Source: a virus. From it: a stretch of 29,402 nt of DNA. Location: positions 1 through 29,402 of the IMG/VR virus record IMGVR_UViG_3300032322_000273; one strand, given 5' to 3'. The notes beneath the pieces were generated by a model. That model was not told the origin of the DNA, ran no database searches, and worked only from the letters and a program-made list of their open reading frames with translations. Positions 1,786 to 2,360 of this stretch are shown in pieces. Numbering within the stretch: the first letter of the stretch is position 1; each line of letters starts with the position of its first letter. A program made the position numbers and the translations under genes.

Positions 1786-1924
1786 TTGTTTCTCCTGAAA
1801 CGGGTTGAACTTAGGGTTTATCGTCGCTGGTTGTCCAGGTCGCCCTGGGCCTTGACTTGTGCTTATCCTCGCACCGAGCAGTGGATTACCACCATCTATC
1901 GGCCTTGCGGTTGTCGATGGTTGA

Positions 1925-1955
1925 ATTCTATCGCACAGTTCTCTGGGTGTGTCAA
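1925..1955 (-). promoter_or_regulatory. sigma70-type promoter for the major capsid gene
   Basis: On the minus strand there is a perfect TTGACA (1955-1950), then 19 bases, then TAGAAT (1930-1925, 5 of 6 consensus). An alternative -10 with a 17-base spacer, GATAGA preceded by TGC (extended -10 type), overlaps it. Transcription would begin near 1918, giving a leader of about 130 bases before the capsid ATG. Confidence 0.6.
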
Positions 1956-2218
1956 CTATTTCTGGGCATAGGTTCCCCAAGGGTGGATAGCTCTGTATCC
2001 AGCCCCTCCCGGAGGGACTTGCTTGTAGTCCATCCCAGAGTACCCATGAGGCAGCGATTCATCCAATGTGTGCTTGTCCCACCGCTGTGCACACATCTAC
2101 CCAAGTCCCTCGCTGACAGGCTTGTCGGGTTAGCTGAGGGGTGTGTCCCAGCCCGGTGTTTCTTGGGTGCGGCCCATGCAGGCCCATATGCTGACGCGCC
2201 CTGACGGCTGCGTGCAGA
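1956..2218. other. non-coding stretch between structured RNA and capsid promoter
   Basis: No credible gene lies here: the only open frames have shadow-like composition and no ribosome sites. The stretch holds several short inverted repeats: GGATA/TATCC at 1985-2000, a CCCTC/GAGGG palindrome around 2004-2016, and GTGTGC/GCACAC spanning about 2067-2093. It may be a structured leader or spacer for the transcripts passing into the capsid gene. No specific element was recognised. Confidence 0.5.
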
Positions 2219-2303
2219 CAACAAAAAAGCCGCTTACTACTGCGCCCGGTAGCTGCTCCCCTTTCGAGGACAGACGCATGAGTAAACGGCTTCGACTTTG
2301 TTG
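2219..2303 (-). ncRNA. candidate structured RNA (long hairpin with GNRA cap and U-tract)
   Basis: The leftward transcript folds into one extended hairpin. The base pairs 2297-2303 with 2219-2225 (CAACAAA/TTTGTTG). A 12-bp helix joins 2281-2292 to 2227-2238. Inner helices are TGCG/CGCA (2275-2278 with 2241-2244), CTG/CAG (2271-2273 with 2253-2255), and a 5-bp apical stem (2266-2270 with 2257-2261) capped by a GAAA tetraloop. A run of six Us (2228-2223) lies at the foot. Two pairs are G-U wobbles in the leftward RNA but would be C-A mismatches in the rightward RNA, so the leftward transcript is the structured one. It could be a small RNA with its own terminator, an mRNA processing or stability element, or a second terminator. 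No known RNA family was recognised. Confidence 0.55.
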
Positions 2304-2331
2304 ACAGCTACGACAACGAGGCCAGTATACA
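2301..2331 (+). promoter_or_regulatory. possible rightward (antisense) promoter
   Basis: TTGACA at 2301-2306 and TATACA at 2326-2331 match the sigma70 hexamers in 6/6 and 5/6 positions, but the 19-base spacer is longer than ideal. It would drive transcription antisense to the scaffold gene. The match could be chance, since the same bases form part of the hairpin and the leftward -10. Confidence 0.25.
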
Positions 2332-2351
2332 CAAAAAAAGACCCAGCACAA
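2324..2351 (-). promoter_or_regulatory. possible extended -10 promoter for the structured RNA
   Basis: On the minus strand TGTG precedes TATACT (2329-2324), an extended -10 form. The nearest -35 candidate, TTGTGC at 2351-2346 with a 16-base spacer, is weak. A start near 2317 would give an RNA of about 95 bases ending at the U-tract near 2223. It abuts the terminator of the scaffold gene. Confidence 0.3.
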
Positions 2352-2360
2352 GGCTGGGTC
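2333..2360 (-). terminator. Rho-independent terminator after the scaffold gene
   Basis: In the leftward transcript GACCCAGC (2360-2353) pairs perfectly with GCTGGGTC (2347-2340) across a 5-base loop, followed by seven Ts (2339-2333). It lies 38 bases after the scaffold stop codon and separates the portal/scaffold operon from the capsid transcription unit. Confidence 0.88.

Follow-up and report, generated by a model that had tools for sequence, protein, structure and literature searches.

The window analyzed here, a virus record of 29,402 bases, carries on its minus strand a structured RNA of 95 nt (2223-2317) that we call RNA1. By every test available, with a literature search covering open-licence papers, the sequence data indicate that RNA1 represents a new RNA family, unusual in its composite arrangement but of a general kind already known, namely structured phage RNAs that carry their own terminator. 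The case for its identity is strong: RNA1 appears to be a phage small RNA of ~95 nt with its own sigma-70-type promoter, a hairpin at +1 and its own intrinsic terminator, and would constitute the front half of a mobile, moron-like two-RNA cassette lodged between phage genes, with a second RNA (RNA2) as the interchangeable back half. RNA1 adds a strongly covarying family that has no entry in Rfam 15.

Fold, strand and ends of RNA1

An earlier note on this DNA had described a leftward hairpin at 2219-2303 with a GAAA tetraloop and a six-U tract. Both are present on the leftward strand, where this interval folds with -47.4 kcal/mol (z = -5.45; 0 of 200 shuffles were as good), against a z of only -1.14 for the rightward strand. 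The hairpin therefore stood, but its start at 2303 did not, as the element begins at 2317 and its 5' hairpin (2300-2317) and a pseudoknot had been missed. The exact RNA (2317-2223) folds with -41.1 kcal/mol (z = -5.39) and is matched from end to end by the covariance model (2223-2317, E 5.9e-18), in agreement with the predicted leftward RNA of ~95 nt ending at 2223. The strand-specific wobble pairs were likewise real, their number in the leftward RNA being four instead of two (U32-G85, U44-G73, U46-G71 and U51-G58, numbered from 2317). The proposed leftward strand and selection on the RNA are supported. A lack of compensatory changes had been named as an outcome that would speak against this reading; the check did not refute it, helix P2 having 12 pairs changed on both sides in the homologues compared.

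RNA1 homologues were gathered by an architecture scan of all loci; 41 sequences were aligned, and the set was later extended to 131 distinct sequences. The 5'-terminal hairpin P1 (2300-2317, minus strand), GUUG...CAAC in the window, lies at the predicted start and keeps 4/4 pairs in each of the 41 sequences aligned, where CAAC, CGAC, CAGC and UAAC occur as variants. It is followed by a long hairpin (2227-2292, minus strand) made up of P2 (2292-2271 with 2248-2227), in which a CA/GU internal loop separates 12 pairs from an upper helix, and of the apical hairpin P3 with its GAAA loop (2270-2257). Changes on both sides were found in 12/19 P2 pairs, and P3 is the most variable part of RNA1 in the alignment of 41 sequences, its GAAA loop not being conserved. 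On alignment A1, 99.3% of the cells for P1 and P2 were paired, 12 pairs were changed on both sides and the covariation score reached 0.416; the shuffled controls scored 0.169 and none reached the real values, while structures slid along the alignment scored at most 0.104.

The P1 loop contains the strand GUAGCUG (2305-2311, minus strand), which forms a 7-bp pseudoknot with CAGCUAC (2249-2255, minus strand), a "bulge" of the long hairpin that a plain fold leaves unpaired. The pseudoknot was counted on anchored sequences and not on the MAFFT alignment A1, where the second strand is out of register. Thirty different words occur among the 131 distinct sequences, and position 3 shows each of the four Watson-Crick pairs; as the sets of 41 and 131 sequences had been selected for having the pseudoknot, a fairer test used 34 unique loci chosen by a pattern on the P2 3' strand only, regardless of the pseudoknot. 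A 7-bp Watson-Crick pseudoknot was found in 34/34 of these loci, against 34/1034 combinations when the 5' and 3' halves were swapped between loci; some of the 34 are related and so do not represent independent events, their pseudoknot words being nevertheless different. The unpaired bases of RNA1 are few and hardly conserved, and it is the shape that has been kept.

RNA1 carries predicted signals at both ends. An intrinsic terminator behind the scaffold gene (2333-2360, minus strand), with an 8-bp stem (2360-2340) and a U7 tract, confirms the independent terminator that had been proposed directly upstream, and its loop region holds the -35 box of the putative RNA1 promoter (2324-2351, minus strand). 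This promoter, identified from the spacing in homologues, consists of TTGTGC (2351-2346), a 16-nt spacer and TATACT (2329-2324), with a predicted start at 2317, the first G of the P1 hairpin. A promoter at the start of the RNA had been suspected as an extended -10 element; the position held, as a predicted sigma-70-type promoter, but the strict extended -10 did not, the arrangement being of the -35/-10 type. The -35 box of the window, placed within the upstream terminator hairpin, is weak (3/6), too weak for the generic promoter scan, which did not list this promoter; many homologues carry TTGACA at this position. In 36/50 homologues by script, and in 11 more by inspection, 6-7 nt separate the end of the -10 box from GUUG, the script having taken an upstream GUUG in the latter cases. 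At the 3' end, the GC-closed stem P2 is followed by a U6 tract (2223-2228, minus strand), which gives RNA1 the form of an intrinsic terminator, one too large for the generic terminator scan, which requires a short loop. Among homologues found by a pattern without the U tract, nearly all have retained it; in two, L209 and L224, it is degenerate (CCUUUGUG).

Distribution and gene contexts

The RNA1 pattern was found in 50 viral contigs, most of them outside the capsid lineage of the window; the matches listed for a second pattern (P1 plus the P2 5' strand) also included chance matches in coding sequence. With the covariance model, 29/31 whole records had one sense-strand copy, two of these weak, and across the 31 records the sense-strand match was far stronger than the antisense one. 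The carriers are unrelated phages, apparently mostly from freshwater. We distinguished 46 phage gene contexts, of which many lie in regions for replication or recombination; in 39/46 the gene after RNA1 runs in the same direction. The neighbors include YqaJ, a sub-threshold RecT match, HNH proteins, RusA (annotated in MW202484) and a small protein of the form FExFWxAWPKSxRKG.

The family is thus wide among unrelated environmental phages and nearly missing from cultured phages and bacterial genomes. One phage record matched, a podovirus from the Manatee Spring virome, in which RNA1 is flanked by a helix-turn-helix gene and rusA. On the bacterial side the only match was a betaproteobacterial MAG contig of viral look; among genomes of the bacterial order of this MAG, RNA1 occurred in 1/399, namely the MAG itself, and a plasmid search gave no match. 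In MW202484.1 a hypothetical protein is annotated over RNA1 and RNA2 (33533-33892), and this is probably not a real gene.

The location between scaffold and capsid genes reported in the earlier note is correct for the window and does not hold as the general site, most RNA1 copies lying elsewhere. Control of capsid dosage, which had been suggested as one possibility, was not supported: a dedicated role of this kind is unlikely because RNA1 occurs in many contexts that are mostly not scaffold-capsid junctions, and capsid relatives with up to 96% identity are without RNA1.

The two-RNA cassette

On the minus strand of the window the gene order is portal (4978-3410), scaffold (3162-2398) and capsid (1785-943), and we retrieved 80 capsid relatives to compare the last junction. 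Most of their scaffold-capsid junctions belong to one of two length classes, ~180-255 bp and ~590-980 bp, and comparison of the junction sequences revealed that the long ones contain an extra cassette, with the scaffold terminator on one side and the capsid promoter on the other. This cassette starts with a promoter and RNA1, after which comes a conserved region of ~240-300 nt, RNA2; in L020 and L027 it opens with a different small RNA in place of RNA1, in a similar layout. The relative L002, with a capsid 96% identical to that of the window, has a short junction without the cassette, implying that the cassette is gained or lost among close relatives and therefore behaves like a phage moron.

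A putative capsid promoter lies after RNA2 (1925-1955, minus strand; TTGACA, 19 nt, TAGAAT) and can be aligned among relatives whether or not they carry the cassette; the generic promoter scan did not report it because its spacer is too long. The capsid leader (1786-1924, minus strand) contains recurring sequence blocks, also present in both kinds of relatives, and may be a third structured RNA; on a mixed alignment no covariation was found in it. In L013 an ORF that looks by eye like a winged helix precedes the capsid gene where the relatives carry the RNA cassette, which gives the junction the look of a hot spot for insertions. A search of the window for tRNA and tmRNA genes gave none.

The RNA2 of the window, which we call type A, is 241 nt long (1967-2207, minus strand). 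In the window lineage it contains seven covarying helices, one of them crossing another, against 0-2 in permuted controls; its fold energy alone was not significant (z = -0.34), and the consensus fold from a mixed alignment of 26 sequences was poor. All 56 type-A loci have an RNA1-type element upstream (48 by script and 7 by inspection) or end in a truncated contig (one locus). Of 85 loci, most have 17-25 nt separating the RNA1 stem from RNA2, and most of the others have inserted modules. RNA2 follows RNA1 nearly always, its types differing between phages and being interchangeable; one exception is L115, where an HNH gene comes directly after RNA1. No promoter was seen between the two RNAs.

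Several variations of this organization were noted. Extra modules of ~100-230 nt lie between RNA1 and RNA2 in L012, L016, L019, L047, L105 and L263; some are closed by long inverted repeats, and the module of L019 ends in GGTTCGATTCC, which resembles a tRNA T-arm. Another intergenic module, GGGAAAGCGGATGCT...GCGAGTACC, recurs in L017, L020 and L132. Small HNH endonuclease ORFs are found in or beside the cassette in L003, L115 and L171 and could help it to move. Type-C RNA2 is usually preceded by a small RNA different from RNA1; in L321-L350 the small RNA that replaces RNA1 before it belongs to a second promoter-proximal class (CGTCTAGAGTGGCATCTAGGCG ... GGGGTTTTT).

Possible function and relation to known RNAs

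We give about an even chance to a two-RNA moron in which RNA1 acts in trans or as a decoy and, in addition, limits RNA2. A host or phage protein would recognize RNA1 by its fold, and this mode seems the most likely because it is the shape, not unpaired sequence, that is conserved. Its conserved shape, few conserved unpaired bases, 5'-terminal stem and U-tract end suggest a stable RNA recognized in this way. Since no promoter of its own was seen for RNA2, we infer that this RNA is made by read-through of the RNA1 terminator, which would limit such read-through and set the RNA1:RNA2 ratio. The argument for a role in trans comes from one observation, the absence of conserved unpaired sequence, and the pseudoknot is also compatible with a purely cis role; a terminator that works between promoter and RNA2 fits oddly with the regular pairing of the two RNAs. 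In a more tentative extension of the two-RNA moron, RNA1 and RNA2 may form an RNA-only mobile module, present once per genome in very diverse phages, in which a constant front RNA (a handle, a stabilizer or an expression control) is combined with a swappable effector RNA for phage-host or phage-phage conflict.

An action in cis only, with RNA1 as a regulated terminator (an attenuator or a put-like anti-termination element) gating RNA2 and the genes behind, seems to us rather unlikely, even if the lack of a visible promoter between the RNAs, their strict order at 17-25 nt in most loci, the direction of the next gene (the same in 39/46 contexts) and the kept U tract would all be expected from it. 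The downstream genes vary, the capsid gene of the window has its own putative promoter behind RNA2, and no switch is visible, since pseudoknot and terminator stem are not in competition. Constant order and spacing, and the fact that among the 56 type-A loci, one of them truncated, RNA2 never lacks an RNA1-type element, could also be explained if both were domains of one long RNA, joined simply by the U tract, and if the terminator were weak during infection. We regard this as improbable, given that a textbook U tract is kept, that some loci have modules of ~100-230 nt between the supposed domains and that complementarity between RNA1 and RNA2 is at chance level (mean 7.26 vs 7.08).

Two further readings have very little probability in our judgment. 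A plain transcription terminator with no RNA function would account for the stem and the U tract, which lie between phage genes and next to an ordinary terminator; such a terminator needs neither a 5' hairpin, nor a pseudoknot with 30 covarying words, nor a promoter starting exactly at the hairpin, and the scaffold gene of the window is already ended by that ordinary terminator 20 nt upstream. The other is a base-pairing antisense sRNA directed against host or phage messages, with its seed in the P3 loop or a pseudoknot strand. P3 and the pseudoknot words vary, as expected with differing targets, and a U-rich 3' end is typical of Hfq-bound sRNAs, this being the only feature of that class seen in RNA1; yet the unpaired bases are few and unconserved, the pseudoknot fills the 5' loop, and no excess complementarity was found to the neighboring RNA2, the sole target compared.

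RNA1 was not a recognized RNA family for the earlier note, and indeed no Rfam 15 family reaches its curated score for RNA1. A permissive search of 1780-2420 gave no match confined to the RNA1 interval, and one to a c-di-AMP riboswitch over 2104-2229 with 13.7 bits (cut-off 38); the RNA2 of the window had no Rfam match. In open-licence papers we found no literature on RF02932, the put RNA or a phage two-RNA cassette, and an earlier description elsewhere is possible.

Phage morons are autonomous transcription units inserted between phage genes. The cassette shares with them a position between genes, an apparent promoter and terminator of its own flanking the inserted unit, and its presence or absence in close relatives; it differs in consisting of structured RNAs, usually without a protein, some copies having a small HNH ORF. 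RNA1 resembles the put RNA of phage HK022 and RNA-based anti-termination in being a short structured RNA near the promoter of a phage transcript. The put RNA, through which RNA polymerase passes downstream terminators, is made of two hairpins and has no terminator, and the architecture of RNA1, with its pseudoknot and terminator end, is different. GOLLD, ROOL and HEARO are likewise structured RNAs of phages or mobile elements with unclear roles, and HNH ORFs lie near some RNA1 copies; unlike them, RNA1 had no Rfam match in any scan. HEARO accompanies the large IscB protein, whereas the RNA1 loci have only HNH ORFs of 112-163 aa, and in few loci. In the pistol ribozyme the pseudoknot strand lies on the 5' side of P3; in RNA1 it lies on the 3' side, and with no Rfam match this candidate was rejected. 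A ribozyme in general was dropped as well, RNA1 being almost without conserved unpaired bases. ToxI, of type III toxin-antitoxin systems, is also a small pseudoknotted RNA tied to phage biology, and consists of tandem repeats before an endoribonuclease toxin gene (PMC8860590). RNA1, in contrast, is present in a single copy per record, with variable neighbors and no constant protein neighbor.

RF02932 (Betaproteobacteria-1 RNA), an sRNA of unknown function in Rfam, is a different RNA, since its covariance model is not matched by RNA1 or by the RNA2 of the window. It shares the phage setting and fills the RNA2 slot right behind RNA1 in five loci (L099, L166, L204, L218 and L235). RF02932 thereby gains a genomic setting: it is among several interchangeable second RNAs that share RNA1 as the first, and its role becomes testable.
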